NCBI GenBank assembly: GCA_001004085.1
Contig: LCQJ01000001.1
Location: 1-22,948, forward strand
Direction of reading: 5' to 3'
Length of the DNA stretch: 22,948 bases
DNA from: Parcubacteria group bacterium GW2011_GWA2_50_10b
GTDB lineage: Bacteria > Patescibacteriota > Minisyncoccia > Phycocordibacterales > Zambryskibacteraceae
Shown: positions 3,725 through 22,083 of the stretch, piece after piece
Position numbering within the stretch: position 1 is the first letter of the stretch
Layout of the letters: each line of letters opens with the position of its first letter
Position numbers and translations under genes: made by a program
The notes under the pieces: generated by a model
What the model was told of the DNA's origin: nothing
The model's database searches: none
The model's input: only the letters and a program-made list of their open reading frames with translations

Positions 3725-4427
3725 TATTTACCTCGAACCTTTCGCCAGGCGCTGGATTAGCTGGCTGCCACGCTTTATCCTGAAGTTTCTAGCCTCTCTG
3801 CCACTTCGTGGCAGTAACTACGCCGAACGCGCGCTATCCTCGCTCGAGGATTGGTATATCGGCAATGCCTCGGTCTTTAAAAGCGCTGAAGTGAAATCTC
3901 TCTGGCGTGGCGAACCTATGTCAAGGGTGCCCCTTGACACCTTGTATCGGGAAGCGAATGGCTTGAGCGATTCGACCAAGATGCAGTATGTCGACATCAA
4001 CACTTGGCTCGTGGGCGACATTCTGGCCAAAGCGGACAAGATGACCATGGCTCATTCCCTGGAACTCCGGGTGCCGTTCTTGGATAGTTCCGTAGCAACA
4101 CTCGCTTCAAAGCTTCCCGATAAGTTTAAATGGAGAAACGGTGAGACAAAATATTTGTTGCGCGAAGCCTTCAAAACGGTTTTGCCCGAATCGACAAGGC
4201 AGCGGAAGAAATTGGGGTTCCCGGTCCCGATAGCATCATGGCTTAATGAAAAACATTTCGAAAAGATCATTGGAAATGTTTATATCCAATCTCATTTTAA
4301 TCTGGACCAAATTAAAAAACTTTTCGAAAAACCGGAAGATAACGCCAGGAAGATTTACCTCCTCCTGGTGCTGGCCGTCTGGTACAATGTATTTATTGAA
4401 AATTCTAAATTGAAAATTAAAAATTAA
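3615..4427 (+). CDS. asnB: Asparagine synthase, C-terminal fragment (same broken gene, other frame)
   Basis: From about 3663 this frame reads LLARITVVLSGEGADELFGG, the second conserved block of the asparagine synthetase domain. It continues with VGDILAKADKMTMAHSLELR and VPFLD, the family's substrate-site block, and ends normally. Codons 3615-3662 are out-of-frame sequence of the N-terminal part; the TTG at 3615 is only the first possible start. Together with the N-terminal part (309 residues to LGTDH plus 254 here) and the missing stretch, the protein would be about 620 aa, as usual for this family. Two palindromes lie inside this part (3798-3814 and 3918-3939). The last codons are formed by AT-rich repeat sequence (IENSKLKIKN). 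Confidence 0.82.
   Translation: MNRFPRGWRPKRLPNLLARITVVLSGEGADELFGGYNIYLEPFARRWISWLPRFILKFLASLPLRGSNYAERALSSLEDWYIGNASVFKSAEVKSLWRGEPMSRVPLDTLYREANGLSDSTKMQYVDINTWLVGDILAKADKMTMAHSLELRVPFLDSSVATLASKLPDKFKWRNGETKYLLREAFKTVLPESTRQRKKLGFPVPIASWLNEKHFEKIIGNVYIQSHFNLDQIKKLFEKPEDNARKIYLLLVLAVWYNVFIENSKLKIKN
3798..3814. repeat. Palindrome inside asnB coding sequence (7-bp arms, 3-nt loop)
   Basis: CTGCCAC - TTC - GTGGCAG is a perfect inverted repeat with a 3-base loop, read in frame as part of LPLRGSN. It has the same design (long arms, 3-base loop) as the palindrome 104 bases downstream. Confidence 0.6.
3918..3939. repeat. In-frame 22-bp palindromic element, copy 1 (in asnB)
   Basis: TGTCAAGGG - TGC - CCCTTGACA, preceded by A, is a perfect 9-bp inverted repeat with a 3-base loop. 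The identical 22 bases occur at 10080-10101 in gltX. Both copies are read in the same frame as MSRVPLD. Confidence 0.85.
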
Positions 4428-8900: not shown

Positions 8901-8938
8901 ATACGTTATCTTTTCACTGCAGTGAACTAATAACGTAT
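8901..8938 (-). terminator. 38-bp near-perfect palindrome, likely terminator
   Basis: Outer arms ATACGTTAT / ATAACGTAT (9 bp) and a central perfect palindrome TTCACTGCAGTGAA (14 bp) share the same centre, with three mismatched positions on each side between them. On the minus strand it is followed by a U-rich run, so it would terminate the minus-strand transcript. The arm TACGTTAT differs in one base from the TACATTAT arms at 19885 and 20531. Confidence 0.55.
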
Positions 8939-8972
8939 ACGATTTAATCTACCTATAGGACAATAAAATCGT
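8939..8972. repeat. CCTATAGG palindrome, site A
   Basis: Layout is ACGATTT - N6 - CCTATAGG - N6 - AAATCGT, perfectly centred on the 8-bp core. The spacing is the same as in the sites at 19885-19920 and 20531-20566, but the arms differ. It abuts the palindrome at 8901-8938 with no base between. Confidence 0.75.
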
Positions 8973-8996
8973 GTGCCAAACTGACCTCCTTTATCT

Positions 8997-9065: not shown

Positions 9066-10286
9066 ATGATTACTCGCTTTCCACCTTCACCGACCGGGCC
9101 GCTTCATATCGGCAATGTCCGGACCGCTCTGTTCAATTATCTGTTTGCGAAAAAGCATGGCGGTCAATTCATCGTGCGCATCGAAGATACCGACAAAACC
9201 AGGTCGAAGAAAGAATATGAAGACGATATGCTCGAGAGCCTGGTGTGGCTAGGCATCAAACGTGAAGGCGAGCTCTGGCATCAGTCGGAAAGAACGGAAA
9301 TCTATAAAAAATATCTCCATAAGCTCATTGATGACGGCAAGGCTTATATTTCTCACGAGACGGAAGGGGAGAATAGGGAAGTGGTCCGTTTTAAAAACCC
9401 CAACAAAAAAGTGGCTTTTGACGATCTGATTCGCGGCGCCGTAGAATTCGATACTACCGAGCTCGAAGACTTCATTATCGCTAGAAATATTGATGACCCT
9501 GTTTATCATTTGGCGGTGGTAGTTGATGATGCGGAGGCTGGGGTGACACATATCATCCGCGGAGAAGATCATATCTCGAACACTCCTCGCCACATCTTGA
9601 TTCAGGAAGCTCTGGGATTCCCGCGGCCGATTTATGCTCATCTACCTCTTATTCTCGCCTCAGATAAGTCTAAGCTCTCCAAGCGCAAACATGGCGAAGC
9701 CGTTTCTCTCAATTATTATCGAGCCAAAGGCTATTTGCCGGAAGCGATGGTGAACTACTTGGCGCTTCTCGGGTGGAATCCCGGTACTGAACAGGAAATT
9801 TTTACTATGGAAGAATTGATAGGGCAGTTTGACTTGGCCAAAATTCAGAAAGGCGGGGCCATCTTTGATGAGAAAAAACTGCAATGGGTGAACAAAGAGC
9901 ACATCAAGCGACTGCCGCCGGAGGAGCAACGGAAGTTATTAGTTAAAAGTTTGGAAGGAGAGCCGTACCTGGTAGGGGAGCCGGAGCTCGATCTTGAAAA
10001 ACTTCCGTGGAAAAAAGTTTCCAAAGAAGAAACCGTTGTTTATTTGGAAAAAGTTTTAGAAATAATTTCAAGCGGTAATATGTCAAGGGTGCCCCTTGAC
10101 ATCATGCGGTATGCCGAGAGGGAAGGGAAGGGGAATGTTTTGTGGCCCGTGCGCTACGCCTTGACTGGCGCGACCGCCTCACCCGACCCATTTATTATCC
10201 TGGAGATTTTAGGCAAAGAGAAGTCCCTCGGACGGCTGGAAAAAGCTATAATGGCGTTAAAGAATGCAGAGATTAAAGATTCATGA
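9066..10286 (+). CDS. gltX: Glutamate--tRNA ligase
   Basis: This class I synthetase charges tRNA(Glu). The HIGH-type motif is in FPPSPTGPLHIGNVRTALFN (about residues 5-24), VVDDAEAGVTHIIRGEDHIS (about 154-173) is the conserved acceptor-binding block, and KMSKS appears as KLSKR (about 205). At 406 aa it is shorter than E. coli GltX (471 aa), with reduced loops and anticodon domain. Near residue 339 the sequence MSRVPLD is encoded by a 22-bp palindrome identical to one in asnB. It falls just before the conserved GKGNVLWPVRYALTG segment, probably in a tolerant loop. The last 23 bases overlap the next gene. Whether it is discriminating or also charges tRNA(Gln) cannot be told. Confidence 0.94.
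   Translation: MITRFPPSPTGPLHIGNVRTALFNYLFAKKHGGQFIVRIEDTDKTRSKKEYEDDMLESLVWLGIKREGELWHQSERTEIYKKYLHKLIDDGKAYISHETEGENREVVRFKNPNKKVAFDDLIRGAVEFDTTELEDFIIARNIDDPVYHLAVVVDDAEAGVTHIIRGEDHISNTPRHILIQEALGFPRPIYAHLPLILASDKSKLSKRKHGEAVSLNYYRAKGYLPEAMVNYLALLGWNPGTEQEIFTMEELIGQFDLAKIQKGGAIFDEKKLQWVNKEHIKRLPPEEQRKLLVKSLEGEPYLVGEPELDLEKLPWKKVSKEETVVYLEKVLEIISSGNMSRVPLDIMRYAEREGKGNVLWPVRYALTGATASPDPFIILEILGKEKSLGRLEKAIMALKNAEIKDS
10080..10101. repeat. In-frame 22-bp palindromic element, copy 2 (in gltX)
   Basis: This is identical to 3918-3939: TGTCAAGGG - TGC - CCCTTGACA with a preceding A, again read as MSRVPLD. The two host genes are unrelated. Confidence 0.85.
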
Positions 10287-13889: not shown

Positions 13890-13930
13890 ACTACTTCGTT
13901 TTACATATATTGTGCGAAGATGTTAATATA

Positions 13931-14902
13931 ATGAATATGCGTGATTCCCTACCAATCATCGAGCACCTTCTTCCCTTTCTTGATTACTGTGAAATAGAGA
14001 AAGGACTATCAAATAATACTCAAAAGAACTACAAGCAGTATCTCCTGCTCTTTACACGCTGGCTCGAAAAAACCGGCAACTCCAAACTCAAACCTCATGA
14101 GTTGACAGCGAAGCATGTCTGGGATTACCGCTTATATTTGGCTCGTACTTATAAGTCTCCTACTGGTGAATATTTAGGTAAGAAGTCGCAGAATTACTAT
14201 TTAATTGCCCTACGAGCCCTTCTGAATTACTTGGCCGAGCAGGATATCGAGTCTTTACCTTCTTCCAAGGTTAATTTAGCTAAACAGAAATCTGAAGAAG
14301 CCATTTCTTTTCTAGAAGTTCCAGATGTGGAAAAGATGCTTCAAATTCCAGACCTTAAAACTCCTGGTGGCCTACGTGACCGGGCTATCATGGAGCTTTT
14401 CTTTTCTTCCGGAATGCGTATTTCTGAACTTTTATCTCTTAATGTGGATCAGCTCTCATTTTTGAACGATAAAAGCACAAGCAGGACCTATGAACTTTCT
14501 ATCGTGGGTAAGGGGAAGCATATTCGCACCATCTTTATTTCGCCTCGAGCGGCTGAATGGTTACGTCAATATCTTAAGGCCCGACGTGATGTTTACAAAC
14601 CGCTCTTCATAAACTTCCGTTCTAAAGACGAAGATAATAATCGTCTCTCTCCCCGTTCGGTCCAGTCGATGATCTCTAGATGCGCGATGCTGGCTGGTAT
14701 CTCTAAAAAAGTCACTCCTCATACTCTGCGCCACTCTTATGCCACCGACCTCCTCTCTCATGGAGCGGACTTACGAAGCGTACAGGAGCTTCTAGGGCAT
14801 AAGAATGTGGCGACTACTCAAATCTATACCCATGTTACCAATAAGCGCTTACGTGATATCCATGAGAAATTCCATGGTGGCAGTGACCTCAAAAACAAAT
14901 GA
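13931..14902 (+). CDS. xerC: Tyrosine recombinase XerC/XerD
   Basis: This site-specific recombinase resolves chromosome dimers. The N-terminal SAM-like DNA-binding domain (about residues 5-95) includes LPFLDYCEIEKGLSNNTQKN. The catalytic residues are visible: Arg in SGMRISELLSL (about 161), HTLRHSYATDLLSHG (about 264-278), LLGHKNVATTQIYTH with His about 291 and the nucleophile Tyr about 299. The length of 323 aa is typical. The start is uncertain: ATG at 13931 or 13937 are best, and TTG at 13910 would add seven residues. TATAAT (13927-13932) lies right at the start. It is separated from pyrF by an AT-rich spacer with a DnaA box and followed by a terminator. A single Xer acting alone is common in small genomes. 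Confidence 0.9.
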   Translation: MNMRDSLPIIEHLLPFLDYCEIEKGLSNNTQKNYKQYLLLFTRWLEKTGNSKLKPHELTAKHVWDYRLYLARTYKSPTGEYLGKKSQNYYLIALRALLNYLAEQDIESLPSSKVNLAKQKSEEAISFLEVPDVEKMLQIPDLKTPGGLRDRAIMELFFSSGMRISELLSLNVDQLSFLNDKSTSRTYELSIVGKGKHIRTIFISPRAAEWLRQYLKARRDVYKPLFINFRSKDEDNNRLSPRSVQSMISRCAMLAGISKKVTPHTLRHSYATDLLSHGADLRSVQELLGHKNVATTQIYTHVTNKRLRDIHEKFHGGSDLKNK

Positions 14903-18541: not shown

Positions 18542-19761
18542 TCAAGCTCCACAATACTCTCTCCGGCAAACTCGAAGAATTTAAACCGATTAAAGCCGGA
18601 GAGGCTCGGATGTATCACTGTGGCCCGACGGTCTACGACTACGCCCACATCGGCAATCTGCGCTCATATGTTTTCGCCGACCTCTTGCGCCGCACTTTTG
18701 AGTTTTCGGGTTACGAGGTGACCCAAGTCGTAAACATTACCGACATCGGCCACCTCACTTCGGATGCCGACACCGGCGACGACAAGATGGTCAAAGGCCT
18801 CAAACGCGAAAATCTGCCACTCACGCTTGAAGGCCTCAAAGAGTTGGCAGACAAATACGAAAAAGCTTTTAAAGATGATCTTGTGGCACTTAACATCGAG
18901 AGGCCACAGCATTTCCCCCGCGCCACCGCCTATCTCACCCAGGAAATCGCGCTGATAAAGACTCTGGAGGAGAAAGGATACGCCTACAAACTGGCAGATG
19001 GCCTTTATTTCGACACCGGCAGATTGAAAAGTTACGGCAGGCTCGGCGGGCTCACTCCAATGAGCGAAAGCCAGGCCAGGGTCGGCGGAGCGGAAAAGAA
19101 AAGTCCGCGCGATTTCGTGCTCTGGAAGCTTTCGGCGGACAATCATCTCGGCTTCCACTCGCCCTGGGGCACGGGCTTTCCCGGCTGGCACATCGAATGC
19201 TCGGCCATGTCGCGCGCACTTTTGCATCAGCCTTTCGATGTCCACACCGGCGGCGTCGACCACATCCCGGTCCACCACAACAACGAAATCGCGCAGTCCG
19301 AGGCGGCTTATGACACCCCTCTGGCCAACTTCTGGCTTCATAACGAGTTTGTGACTGTCGCTGCCCCCTCGACTGAGCTCGGGGTAAACAAAATGGCCAA
19401 GTCCGAAGGCAATTTTATTACCCTGAAAGCTTTGCAGGAAAAAGGCTTCTCCCCGCTCGCCTACCGCTACTTTCTCTTAATGGCCCATTACCGCACCCCG
19501 GTCACTTTTTCCTGGGAAGCTTTGGAAGCGGCCAGCAACGCATTTGAAAAACTGAAGCGTTTCGTGGGGCCATTGAGCGCCATAAACGAGGTTGATGAAG
19601 CTTACAAAGCCAAATTTAAAGAAAAAATCGAAAATGATTTAAATACCGCCCAGGCCTTAGCGGTGCTCTGGACTTTGGTCAAAGACAAGGAAGTGACCCC
19701 GGAAAACAAGCTGGCCACTCTCCTCGATTTTGACAAAGTGCTGGGTTTAGGTTTGAAATAA
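18538..19761 (+). CDS. cysS: Cysteine--tRNA ligase
   Basis: This class I synthetase charges tRNA(Cys). Signatures are the zinc/HIGH block MYHCGPTVYDYAHIGNLRSY (about residues 22-41), GTGFPGWHIECSAMSRALL, HTGGVDHIPVHHNNEIAQSE and KMAKSEGN in place of KMSKS. I start it at 18538 because the ATG overlaps the upstream stop (ATGA) and gives the family N-terminus IKLHNTLSGK; an upstream ATG at 18427 would be only an open frame. About 407 aa is short (E. coli 461), with a reduced C-terminus. Before KMAKS there are extra residues AAPSTELG encoded by a TTCGAC-type palindrome (19365-19384). A poly-A run directly after the stop belongs to the minus-strand RNA candidate. Confidence 0.93.
   Translation: MIKLHNTLSGKLEEFKPIKAGEARMYHCGPTVYDYAHIGNLRSYVFADLLRRTFEFSGYEVTQVVNITDIGHLTSDADTGDDKMVKGLKRENLPLTLEGLKELADKYEKAFKDDLVALNIERPQHFPRATAYLTQEIALIKTLEEKGYAYKLADGLYFDTGRLKSYGRLGGLTPMSESQARVGGAEKKSPRDFVLWKLSADNHLGFHSPWGTGFPGWHIECSAMSRALLHQPFDVHTGGVDHIPVHHNNEIAQSEAAYDTPLANFWLHNEFVTVAAPSTELGVNKMAKSEGNFITLKALQEKGFSPLAYRYFLLMAHYRTPVTFSWEALEAASNAFEKLKRFVGPLSAINEVDEAYKAKFKEKIENDLNTAQALAVLWTLVKDKEVTPENKLATLLDFDKVLGLGLK
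19365..19384. repeat. TTCGAC-type palindromic motif inside cysS
   Basis: CCCCTCGACTGAGCTCGGGG has the same plan as the motif at 15643 (CCCTTCGAC...CTCAGGG). It encodes extra residues in the loop before KMAKS. Confidence 0.45.
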
Positions 19762-19847
19762 AAAAGCCGGGCAAGAAGATTTTTCTTGAGATCCTCCCGG
19801 GAGTCTAGCTCCTCAGATATTCGGGGCGGCATGCCCTCGAATGGACC
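19760..19847 (-). ncRNA. Candidate structured small RNA, minus strand, between cysS and the PaaX-like gene
   Basis: This is a GC-rich 88-base stretch in AT-rich surroundings. On the minus strand an extended -10 TGGTATTAT (19862-19854) predicts a start near 19847 (GGTCC). Hairpin 1 pairs ATTCG+GGGC with GCCC+CGAAT (one bulged A). Hairpin 2 is GGAG/CTCC. The 3' stem CCGGG/CCCGG with inner CAAGAA/TTCTTG is followed by TTTTTT, a good intrinsic terminator. No reading frame of note lies within. I do not recognise a known RNA family. It lies downstream of the PaaX/Cas2-like gene on the same strand, after palindrome site B. Confidence 0.5.
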
Positions 19848-19884
19848 AAAAATATAATACCACATATTACCTAACATTCCTACA

Positions 19885-19920
19885 TACATTATAAAAATCC
19901 TATAGGACGGAAATAATGTA
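19885..19920. repeat. CCTATAGG palindrome, site B
   Basis: TACATTAT - N6 - CCTATAGG - N6 - ATAATGTA, 36 bp, exactly symmetrical. Site C at 20531 has the same arms, core and spacing; the 37-base repeats differ at about five positions. The left arm contains ATTATA (TATAAT on the minus strand), so a -10 box is built into the palindrome. Confidence 0.85.
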
Positions 19921-19929
19921 GCTTTGAAT

Positions 19930-20496
19930 TTAAATTAAATCGAAATCCATGCGCAAAAAACGATCATTTTCTAACTGGTCAACTATCATGTAAAGCAGGT
20001 ATTTCCCTATGCCTAGGTCGGTTTTCATTAATCCTATAACATCTTCGCAATCATAGGGAAATACCCACACACTGTCTTGCAAGTGTTGGAATCCTGCCGC
20101 TTTTAAAATCTCCCGGGCCCTTGTCCGTAATCCCCTATTTTTCTCCGGTATATCGAATATAATCACTCTCCATTTTCTATCCCATTTTCTCGGCCTCCTA
20201 ATCTTATAACTAGACATTTGCCATTCATTTAAAGTCTTTTCTCCAGAAGCAGTAAGGGAATAATGGCCATTCTTGAACTCAACAAGCCCCTTCTGTCTTA
20301 AACGACTGGCTGCCGACCTTATTATTTCGCTCCGTCGTTGAGTGAAGGGGTAATCTATACCTGTGAGAGATTCGATGACTTGCCCTACTATTAATTCAGC
20401 ACCCAACCTTCCGCCAGAGGCCAGGGTCAGTAGAATCGCTTCTTGTATTTTCGTTTTCTTTACCGTTTGTTTATTAGTTTCTTCCAACTTACCCAT
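19930..20496 (-). CDS. PaaX-like transcriptional regulator with Cas2-like C-terminal domain
   Basis: In this 188-aa protein the N-terminal half (about residues 14-80) is a winged helix: ILLTLASGGRLGAELIVGQV, QRRSEIIRSAASRLRQKGLV and the wing EFKNGHYSLTASGEK. The C-terminal half (about 105-185) has the ferredoxin-like Cas2/PaaX core: WRVIIFDIPEKNRGLRTRAR, then EILKAAGFQHLQDSVWVFPY. Stand-alone proteins of this kind are often labelled Cas2, but there is no repeat array and no cas1 here, and the N-terminal HTH argues for a regulator. Two near-identical 36-bp palindromes lie on either side of the gene, the upstream one next to its promoter, so autoregulation is likely. A TATAAT ends 13 bases before its ATG. 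Confidence 0.78.
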   Translation of the reverse strand: MGKLEETNKQTVKKTKIQEAILLTLASGGRLGAELIVGQVIESLTGIDYPFTQRRSEIIRSAASRLRQKGLVEFKNGHYSLTASGEKTLNEWQMSSYKIRRPRKWDRKWRVIIFDIPEKNRGLRTRAREILKAAGFQHLQDSVWVFPYDCEDVIGLMKTDLGIGKYLLYMIVDQLENDRFLRMDFDLI

Positions 20497-20509
20497 TTTA
20501 TTTGTAGGT

Positions 20510-20515
20510 ATTATA
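20510..20515 (-). promoter_or_regulatory. -10 element of the PaaX-like gene
   Basis: TATAAT on the minus strand, 13 bases before the ATG at 20496. Site C (20531-20566) begins 15 bases further upstream, where a repressor or activator would act. Confidence 0.45.
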
Positions 20516-20530
20516 GTTAAATATCACTAA

Positions 20531-20566
20531 TACATTATAACAATCCTATAGGAAAAATATAATGTA
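20531..20566. repeat. CCTATAGG palindrome, site C (operator-like)
   Basis: TACATTAT - N6 - CCTATAGG - N6 - ATAATGTA, same as site B. It lies between the divergent PaaX-like gene and dnaB. Each arm contains a TATAAT in outward direction, so it could act on transcription both ways. Confidence 0.85.
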
Positions 20567-20622
20567 GGGTGGTTAATCTAGTTCTCCACACCTTACACAC
20601 TAATTTCTCCCCCTTTGCTAGC

Positions 20623-20652
20623 TTGTCCGCGAGTGGCGGGAATTGCTACGAT
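20623..20652 (+). promoter_or_regulatory. Promoter of dnaB
   Basis: TTGTCC (20623-20628), 18 bases, TACGAT (20647-20652) with TGC before it (extended -10). The -10 ends 6 bases before the ATG at 20659, again leaderless-like. This also supports 20659 as the true start. Confidence 0.5.
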
Positions 20653-20658
20653 GTGCTC

Positions 20659-22083
20659 ATGCATATCACAGGCGCTTCCTCTCTCACTAATACCGGTTTG
20701 CGTATCCCGCCGCATTCGCTTGAAGCCGAGATGGCTCTGCTCGGTTCTATCATGCTTCGCCCGGATGCAATCTATGAAGTGATTGAGATTGTGGGAACAC
20801 AATCTTTTTATTTCGAAAAGCATCGCGTCGTTTTCGAAACGATGCTCGAACTTTTCGAGAAGCACACCCCGATAGACATCCTCTCACTTTCGAGCCGGCT
20901 CAAGGAGAAAGAGCAGCTGGAGCGCTTGGGCGGCACCAGTTACCTCTCCGAACTCTCGGCCACCGTTCCTTCTTCTGCCAACGTCAAACATTACGCGGAA
21001 ATCGTCATGAAGAAGTTCATGATGAGGCAGCTCATCGAGGCTTCCGAGCATCTCTCGCACCTCGGCTTCAACGAAGCCGGCGACCTGGAGGAAATCCTCG
21101 ACCAGGCGGAGAAGAAAGTCTTCGACATCACCGAGCGCTTCTCGGGCTCGACCCGTTTCAAGGACCTCACACCACTTTTGCGCGAGGCCTTCGAACGCTT
21201 CGAGAAACTCTCAAGCGCCGACCACGAGCTCCGTGGTGTGCGTACCGGCTTCAAATCCCTCGACGATATCCTGGGCGGTTTTCAACCCTCCGACCTCATC
21301 ATTATCGCCGCGCGTCCCTCGGTCGGCAAAACCGCGCTCGCCCTCGACATCGCCCGTCGCACGGCGAGCGAACACCAAACCCCGGTCGGCATCTTCTCTC
21401 TTGAAATGAGTGCCGACCAGTTGGTGGACAGAATCGTGGCCGCCCAGTCACGTACTGACGCTTCTGTTATCAGAAAAGGCATCAAAACCCAGACCGGTTC
21501 CTGGCGTGAAGACGTTTTCAAAAATATCCGCGATGCTCTCGACGACCTCTCGCGTACCCCGATATTTATTGATGACCAGTCGGCCAATACCATCATGAAG
21601 ATGCGCTCGGCCGCGAGGAAACTGAAGATTGAAAAAGGTCTAAAACTCCTGGTGGTCGATTACCTTCAGCTCATGGCCTCTACGGTTTCTCGCGCGAATG
21701 ATTCGATGGTTCAGCAGGTCACCGAGATTTCCCGTTCGCTCAAGCATCTGGCTCGCGAACTTAATATCCCGGTTATCGCCCTTTCGCAGATGTCGCGAGC
21801 CATCGAGACGCGCGGCGGCAAACCCAAGCTCTCGGACCTGCGCGATTCCGGCTCCTTGGAGCAGGATGCGGACCTGGTTATGTTCATTCACTCTAACGAA
21901 GAAGATATTAGGGACGAAAACGGCAAGATGAAGGAGGTTCAGAGGAAGGAACTGATTATCGCCAAACACAGGAATGGTCCCCTCGGCTCAGCTATCCTCG
22001 ACTACCACACCCGCTTCAACACTTTCGTCGAAATCGATTACTCCAACTATGGCAAGGCCGAGGAGGACTTCAAGAACTTTTAA
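20659..22083 (+). CDS. dnaB: Replicative DNA helicase DnaB
   Basis: DnaB unwinds DNA at the replication fork as a hexamer. The N-terminal domain starts at RIPPHSLEAEMALLGSIMLR (about residues 15-34). The RecA-like domain has Walker A ARPSVGKTALALDIA (about 217-231), GIFSLEMSADQLVDR, Walker B LLVVDYLQLM (about 329-338), VIALSQMSRAIETR and LRDSGSLEQDADLVMF. I chose ATG 20659 (474 aa, normal length) over the longer open frame from 20569: the promoter ends just before it and the extra upstream residues do not look like DnaB. The PaaX-like gene is divergent from it, with site C between. Confidence 0.95.
   Translation: MHITGASSLTNTGLRIPPHSLEAEMALLGSIMLRPDAIYEVIEIVGTQSFYFEKHRVVFETMLELFEKHTPIDILSLSSRLKEKEQLERLGGTSYLSELSATVPSSANVKHYAEIVMKKFMMRQLIEASEHLSHLGFNEAGDLEEILDQAEKKVFDITERFSGSTRFKDLTPLLREAFERFEKLSSADHELRGVRTGFKSLDDILGGFQPSDLIIIAARPSVGKTALALDIARRTASEHQTPVGIFSLEMSADQLVDRIVAAQSRTDASVIRKGIKTQTGSWREDVFKNIRDALDDLSRTPIFIDDQSANTIMKMRSAARKLKIEKGLKLLVVDYLQLMASTVSRANDSMVQQVTEISRSLKHLARELNIPVIALSQMSRAIETRGGKPKLSDLRDSGSLEQDADLVMFIHSNEEDIRDENGKMKEVQRKELIIAKHRNGPLGSAILDYHTRFNTFVEIDYSNYGKAEEDFKNF

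Follow-up and report, generated by a model that had tools for sequence, protein, structure and literature searches.

The stretch of DNA analysed here, referred to as the window (22,948 nucleotides), carries a gene flanked on either side by 36-bp palindromes of the same type, site B and site C (Table 1). Both sites are exact matches to TACATTAT-N6-CCTATAGG-N6-ATAATGTA and agree with each other at 31 of 36 positions; the window holds no other match even when three mismatches are allowed, and the pattern (mean chance expectation 0.00) was reached in none of 100 shuffles, which bears out the near-identity and common layout that the original prediction had ascribed to the pair. Its further statement that every arm carries a TATAAT holds for three of the four arms (both in C, one in B) and fails for the fourth. 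The core CCTATAGG occurs three times in the window against 0.13 expected, with the third copy (8952-8959) inside a solo palindrome that exactly abuts a second solo of a different type; the latter, at 8902-8937, resembles one end of an element on another contig of the same genome (L009, contig C20). All five copies of CCTATAGG found in the window genome (384 kb, 78% complete) sit in such palindromes. Near-identical 28-bp repeats at 3917-3944 and 10079-10106, also found at locus L005, contain the inverted repeat TGTCAAGGGTGCCCCTTGACA and are another short palindromic repeat of this genome.

Table 1. Features of the window that bear on the palindrome-flanked gene
Feature	Position	Strand	Basis
Protein gene, 188 aa	19930..20496	-	PF20803 profile match
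Site B: 36-bp palindrome, stop-codon side of the gene	19885..19920	.	pattern match
Site C: 36-bp palindrome, same type as B, promoter side of the gene	20531..20566	.	pattern match
TATAAT, possible -10 box, between palindrome C and the ATG	20510..20515	-	by eye
Solo palindrome, CCTATAGG core and TACGATTT/AAATCGTG arms (differing from the B/C arms)	8938..8973	.	
Solo palindrome, TACGTTAT arms and ACTGCAGT core	8902..8937	.	

The PaaX_M Cas2-like domain (PF20803) is recognized in the window protein at E 8e-19, with 68 bits against a gathering score of 24, and in 41 of 41 full-length members from the genus (E up to 0.01). Pfam matches to Cas2 and to winged-helix-turn-helix (wHTH) families fall under their cut-offs; models and fold matches together place an N-terminal wHTH at about residues 1-98 and the Cas2-like domain at 103-174, where Asp115 of an FDIP motif is invariant across the aligned relatives. 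Of the Cas2 profiles, TIGR01573 scores over its cut-off (26.0 against 24.5) and PF09827 under it (21.1 against 23.8), and the PaaX equivalog profile TIGR02277 is missed by far, at 46.7 bits against 264.55. By fold, the wHTH resembles PadR-type repressors, and, among proteins of solved structure, PaaX is nearest to the Cas2-like domain; a sequence search of the PDB gave nothing better than E 0.08, and the second alignment of structure matches covers Foldseek's top 1000, so that families absent there may still match. Public names, where given among the best 120 of 456 relatives, are “CRISPR-associated endonuclease Cas2,” “DNA-binding transcriptional regulator PaaX” and “hypothetical protein.” The first of these misleads, since Cas1 (PF01867) was found in none of the 17 genus genomes (completeness is 90% or more in 10; control genomes were positive in 9 of 14), and the expectation of a Cas2-fold protein of DNA-binding type operating without CRISPR is upheld by the same absence.

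The pairing of such a gene with two palindromes is confirmed as a real and general observation. Five PF20803 genes are present in the window genome, four of them bracketed, each by a different palindrome type (cores CCTATAGG, GCCATGGC, AGCTATAGC and a CACTGCAG-like sequence). The fifth (L010, G000:C13:1-2027), located at the edge of a contig and interrupted by a transposase-like ORF, has a degenerate palindrome with core CGCTATAGCG on the one side present, downstream. By eye, that palindrome adjoins the apparent C-terminal end of an ABC transporter gene. The search pattern originally proposed, built on CCTATAGG, therefore applies at B and C but is too narrow, CCTATAGG being one of many gene-specific core types.

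Across the genus, genes joining a wHTH to a Cas2-fold domain occur in 14 of 17 genomes (1-9 each, 53 in total); with a uniform search window, 83 of their 106 flanks score at least 10, compared with 3 of 136 control windows. Among the full-length genes (186-192 aa), palindromes of one type lie on both sides at a score of at least 8 in 41 of 41 and at a score of at least 9 in 39 of 41, against 8 of 184 and 1 of 184 control windows, respectively, and the elements so delimited measure 632-726 bp (median 663). Twelve of the 53 genes stand outside these 41-gene tests: the broken copy L010; L011, L012 and L013 (182 aa); L030, L034 and L023; and five genes of 164 or 165 aa (L051b, L052, L053, L054 and L056). 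Of these, L012 and all five short genes have palindromes on both sides, L011 has one on one side only and L030 a weak one on one side, and flank scoring found no convincing pair for L013, L034 and L023. The 164/165-aa subclass (L051 to L056, in several genus genomes) shows a palindrome style of its own, with TGTTAACA-like arms and CGATCG or CGACCG cores, and occupies two positions where other species carry the 188-aa class.

The pairing recurs in other Patescibacteria. Relatives are found in records named Zambryskibacteria (probably the group to which the window genome itself belongs), Taylor-, Kaiser-, Nomura-, Adler- and Niyogibacteria, and 83 of 286 sampled phylum genomes contain one (E up to 1e-10). 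Two peptide patterns gave 336 confirmed relatives, and loci were taken from the best 80 of the 336; 50 of those 80 were examined (5 being genus genes already counted), and the other 30 were all genus genes already counted. In the 50 examined loci, the score is 9.5 or more at 84 of 100 flanks, compared with 6 of 195 controls; at 19 more distant phylum loci, outside the window genome, 21 of 38 flanks score at least 10 and 17 fall below, against 0 of 92 controls.

The two palindromes of one gene also resemble each other more than those of different genes. Upstream and downstream cores are identical in 31 of 41 cases, and arm mismatches (of 8) amount to 0.76 within a gene compared with 2.36 between genes, a difference reached in 0 of 2000 permutations. 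Within the genus, partial correlations, with same-locus pairs left out, connect the arms to wHTH identity (rho -0.43; 0 of 1000) and the core to the Cas2-like domain (rho -0.31; 0 of 1000), with cross terms (arms with Cas2-like domain, core with wHTH) of opposite sign. Of 45 new loci, 35 (mostly from other lineages) had qualifying palindromes at both ends and were used, whereas 10 did not; the 35 gave -0.53 for arms with wHTH (0 of 1000), -0.22 for core with Cas2-like domain (1 of 1000) and cross terms of about 0; the core effect is weaker than the arm effect, and related sequences are not fully independent. Each gene has a palindrome type of its own, and across unrelated loci, in two separate data sets, arm sequence varies with the wHTH and core sequence with the Cas2-like domain. 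That protein and palindromes form a cognate protein-site system is next to certain, and the simplest reading would be a dimer whose wHTHs hold the arms while the Cas2-like pair sits on the core.

Position within the element points to regulation of the gene by its own product. The predicted operator overlaps the start of the gene in 28 of 41 cases, where the upstream palindrome ends on the A of the ATG, an arrangement that makes autoregulation look built in; in 22 of 41 it overlaps a putative promoter, a sense TATAAT at palindrome positions 6-11 that is seen in 7 downstream palindromes and, in antisense, in 2 upstream ones. The window gene is an exception to the ATG overlap: its ATG lies 34 nt from the inner edge of site C, with a TATAAT between them (seen by eye) whose partnering -35 box could fall within palindrome C. 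Autoregulation of the element gene through its upstream palindrome is very probable, and site C, originally proposed as an autoregulatory operator, is likely to be one, judging from its position and promoter and by analogy with the 41 genes.

Palindromes and genes are associated at the level of whole genomes as well. A generic palindrome pattern, which admits some non-palindromes and whose counts include the elements' own ends, gave 191 matches in 18 family genomes with a PF20803 match (control pattern, 23) and 15 in 13 family genomes without one (control pattern, 24); over the 31 genomes, Spearman correlation with gene number is 0.88 for palindromes and -0.03 for the control. Equal abundance in genomes lacking the gene had been named beforehand as the outcome that would speak against the proposal, and palindromes were found instead to co-occur with the gene family. 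Many stand apart from any such gene: 9 of 16 pattern matches in the window genome are solos in this sense, two of which are identical over all 36 bp, spacers included, at unrelated loci (contigs C15 and C31). In genome G007, a solo agrees with that genome's own element end at 11 of 12 spacer bases, and same-type pairs share 7.85 of 12 spacer bases within genomes (n=46) against 6.47 between genomes (n=246; p 9e-5, with pairs not independent). Solos also abut one another at exactly 36 bp (13 counts, against at most 1 at any other offset), with seven distinct pairs of abutting solos of different types, six of them in genome G003. Several solos lie shortly 3' of stop codons. By flanking genes, 22 solo sites divide into 11 tandem, 7 convergent, 2 divergent and 2 unclassified, and background gaps into 83 tandem, 21 convergent and 17 divergent; there is no significant difference (p 0.28), so placement does not decide between the readings considered below, and gene orientation around solos was dropped as an argument against regulation.

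Occupied and empty sites can be compared at three loci across the genus, at the level of species and with neighbours that are not always conserved. Between cysS and dnaB, in the 16 genomes with a dnaB match (the second fragment of G011, L127, being left out), the window genome (G000) has the element, G007 a same-type solo directly before the same conserved dnaB leader, G015 a solo of another type, and G003 three palindromes around a 166-aa ORF; none was seen in the other 12. After L5 in the ribosomal-protein operon (17 genomes), the element is present in G003, a solo in G000 and no palindrome in 15, two of them cut at contig ends; by eye, 7 of these 15 run straight from L5 to S14 and 6 carry other sequence, so that an insertion in this gap is not special. 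Of the 15 genomes that have the gene next to the rpmB position, 6 carry an element there and 1 (G007) a solo; neither was seen in the other 8, where neighbours are not always conserved. Seven solos compared with the element at their position in other genomes show 13 mismatches against 23.1 for random elements (6 of 1000), with two exceptions, at cysS-dnaB in G015 and spc in G000, whose cores are unlike that of the element. The G003 gap between cysS and dnaB (L101, G003:C5:56637-60398, 1501-2262) consists of two abutting palindromes, the 166-aa ORF, for which there is no clear Pfam match, and a third palindrome, and the 29 bp before the first and third palindromes are nearly the same; this is possibly a palindrome-bracketed segment with other cargo.

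Evidence for movement is accompanied by evidence for stability. In the protein tree, most loci form clades, and L051 and L057 are nested with support in a clade otherwise found at a third locus; G003 has L057 and, at the third locus, a further member, and together these findings argue for relocation or duplication and not just rearrangement. None of the 53 genus genes has a near-identical copy at a second locus: the two full-length genes most alike (88% identical) occupy the same locus in two species, and no target-site duplication was evident by eye in 41 flank pairs. Such duplications are not made by every transposon. Much inheritance appears vertical, since orientation is the same among orthologous elements and locus labels mostly follow the clades of the tree. 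The constant orientation, apart from loci overlapping on one contig, also led to rejection of an invertible switch. A phage origin was set aside: viral contigs gave one weak match (36% identity over query residues 65-177), and none when searched with a protein of the 164/165-aa subclass.

These observations are best read as a compact element, about 0.65 kb in length and composed of one gene and two cognate palindromes, that moves slowly, regulates itself and works in a manner like that of REPtrons, without being one. Because many ultra-small Patescibacteria carry the cassette, together with gene-less palindromes of matching kind spread over their genomes, it looks selfish or mobile and not part of CRISPR, and we put the probability that it is mobile or selfish rather than purely regulatory at roughly 0.57, movement and cleavage being what we infer. 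Of the two readings first offered for the locus, the small mobile cassette is the better supported, given flanking on both sides in 41 of 41 genes and the solos and empty sites in relatives. It is described as slowly moving or decaying because of the lack of near-identical copies and target duplications, the fixed orientation, the mostly vertical inheritance and the background-like solo placement. Mechanistically, a protein dimer may bind its own palindrome, with the wHTH on the arms and the Cas2 fold on the core; binding at the upstream palindrome, which often bears promoter and start codon, would shut the gene off. Rare relocation of the segment, its loss with a solo palindrome left behind, and the copying of single palindromes might all be made possible by the two ends or by the protein at work on them. 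Cutting and joining might fall to the protein or to host recombination, and it is somewhat doubtful that the protein itself is the enzyme. Doubtful to a slightly greater degree is a fuller version, in which Patescibacteria-wide selfish DNA would employ the single wHTH-Cas2-fold protein as a palindrome nuclease or recombinase, the wHTH dimer gripping the arms and the Cas2-fold dimer acting on the core, so that the element moves, excises or homes between palindromes.

The same evidence against mobility keeps alive, as the main rival and a possible though rather unlikely explanation, a family of purely self-repressing transcription factors, with the upstream palindrome as operator, the downstream one as an auxiliary looping operator and the solos as operators of a regulon. 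The ATG overlap and the strand and position bias of TATAAT in upstream palindromes are as such a regulator would have them, as are the PadR-like wHTH, the PaaX-related second domain, the mostly vertical inheritance and the background-like placement of solos. However, regulation does not need the same-type palindrome that lies 3' of the stop codon at 41 of 41 genes, and the reading sits poorly with the alternation of solo and element at one position between species, with fully identical 36-bp solos at unrelated loci, and with the 22 pattern matches that accompany a single gene in G007 (82% complete).

A lesser candidate has the palindromes serve as recombination or transposition sites for another enzyme, a Xer-type recombinase or Y1 transposase, with the Cas2-fold protein confined to regulation. 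The succession of arm, core and arm, with a core mostly common to both ends, does look like a recombinase site; a tyrosine recombinase is encoded in the window (13910-14902), and Y1_Tnp genes, RAYT-like in size, are found in 15 of 17 genus genomes (1-8 each) and could act in trans. This is nevertheless improbable, as palindrome number tracks Cas2-fold genes (rho 0.78) and not Y1 genes (rho 0.28), arm and core types follow the two domains of the Cas2-fold protein, and in three genomes checked no Y1 gene lies within 3 kb of the listed palindromes. A driving role for Y1 transposase is not supported.

Still less probable is action of the palindromes as RNA hairpins, whether as terminators or as guide-like stem units of the kind that make up TIGR stem arrays. 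They do fold as RNA (z -2.6 and -3.3; -3.7 for the tandem pair), and the solos shortly 3' of stop codons would suit this reading, but any palindrome folds as RNA, the window contains no Rfam match at gathering score, and covariation with the wHTH domain together with exact 36-bp abutment argues for duplex DNA rather than RNA. The suggestion that site B controls a small RNA downstream likewise found no backing: at gathering threshold, Rfam returned nothing over the whole window, at E<=1 (19700-20660) it returned two sub-threshold matches that are not credible (E 0.49 and 0.61), and the fold is no better than shuffles (z -0.68). Chance or assembly artefact, which draft MAGs and the copy at a contig edge might bring to mind, is already refuted, with a residual likelihood close to nil, by 234 strict-finder matches in the fetched, partly overlapping loci against 2 in the same sequence reversed (770 kb) and by replication in independent assemblies and lineages.

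These elements provide a function-level handle on proteins labelled as CRISPR-associated Cas2 in genomes without Cas1, and reveal an apparently undescribed repeat family in a bacterial group that ranks among the largest uncultured ones. Natural covariation of arm with wHTH and of core with Cas2-like domain yields a sharp prediction that swaps of domains and sites could address cheaply, and with it a means of asking if DNA sequence is read or cut by a Cas2-fold domain. Should the palindrome nuclease or recombinase reading be true, Cas2-type machinery would be acting on mobile DNA without Cas1, which could illuminate the origin of Cas2 in CRISPR adaptation.

In open PMC texts (preprints and subscription papers being outside the scope), palindromes of this kind accompanying PaaX/Cas2-like genes of Patescibacteria were not found described, and the repeat family is apparently undescribed. 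Palindromes also surround a gene in TIGR-Tas stem arrays (PMC12045711), which are described with another protein and an array structure. From VapD Cas2-fold ribonucleases, the element protein differs by its wHTH fusion, its cognate DNA palindromes and the placement of a single gene between them; from Cas2 of CRISPR-Cas, by the extra wHTH and the lack of Cas1 in the genus. It does belong to the PaaX-like superfamily (wHTH plus Cas2-like domain, with PaaX_M above gathering score), and it departs from PaaX itself, the phenylacetate repressor (TIGR02277, structure 8a39), in length (188 aa against a 279-position profile), in scoring under the equivalog cut-off and in the paired palindromes. In behaviour, the closest known system is the REPtron, a TnpA-REP/RAYT gene with REP palindromes. 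In REPtrons too (PMC8266576, PMC3733652), cognate palindromes border the gene and are scattered through other intergenic regions; their abundance goes with the presence of the gene, they co-evolve with the protein, and the gene itself shows little sign of mobility. Flanking and dispersed cognate palindromes are thus common to both, whereas the protein here is unrelated, a wHTH plus Cas2 fold with the HUH (His-hydrophobic-His) Y1 transposase motif in 0 of 76 proteins, and there is no constant GTAG tag (GTAG lies across 18 of the 82 outer edges, and in 4 of 41 elements it does so at both ends). The elements described here differ further in that one genome can carry several paralogues, each paired with a palindrome type of its own, and in having 0-25 pattern matches per genome instead of hundreds.
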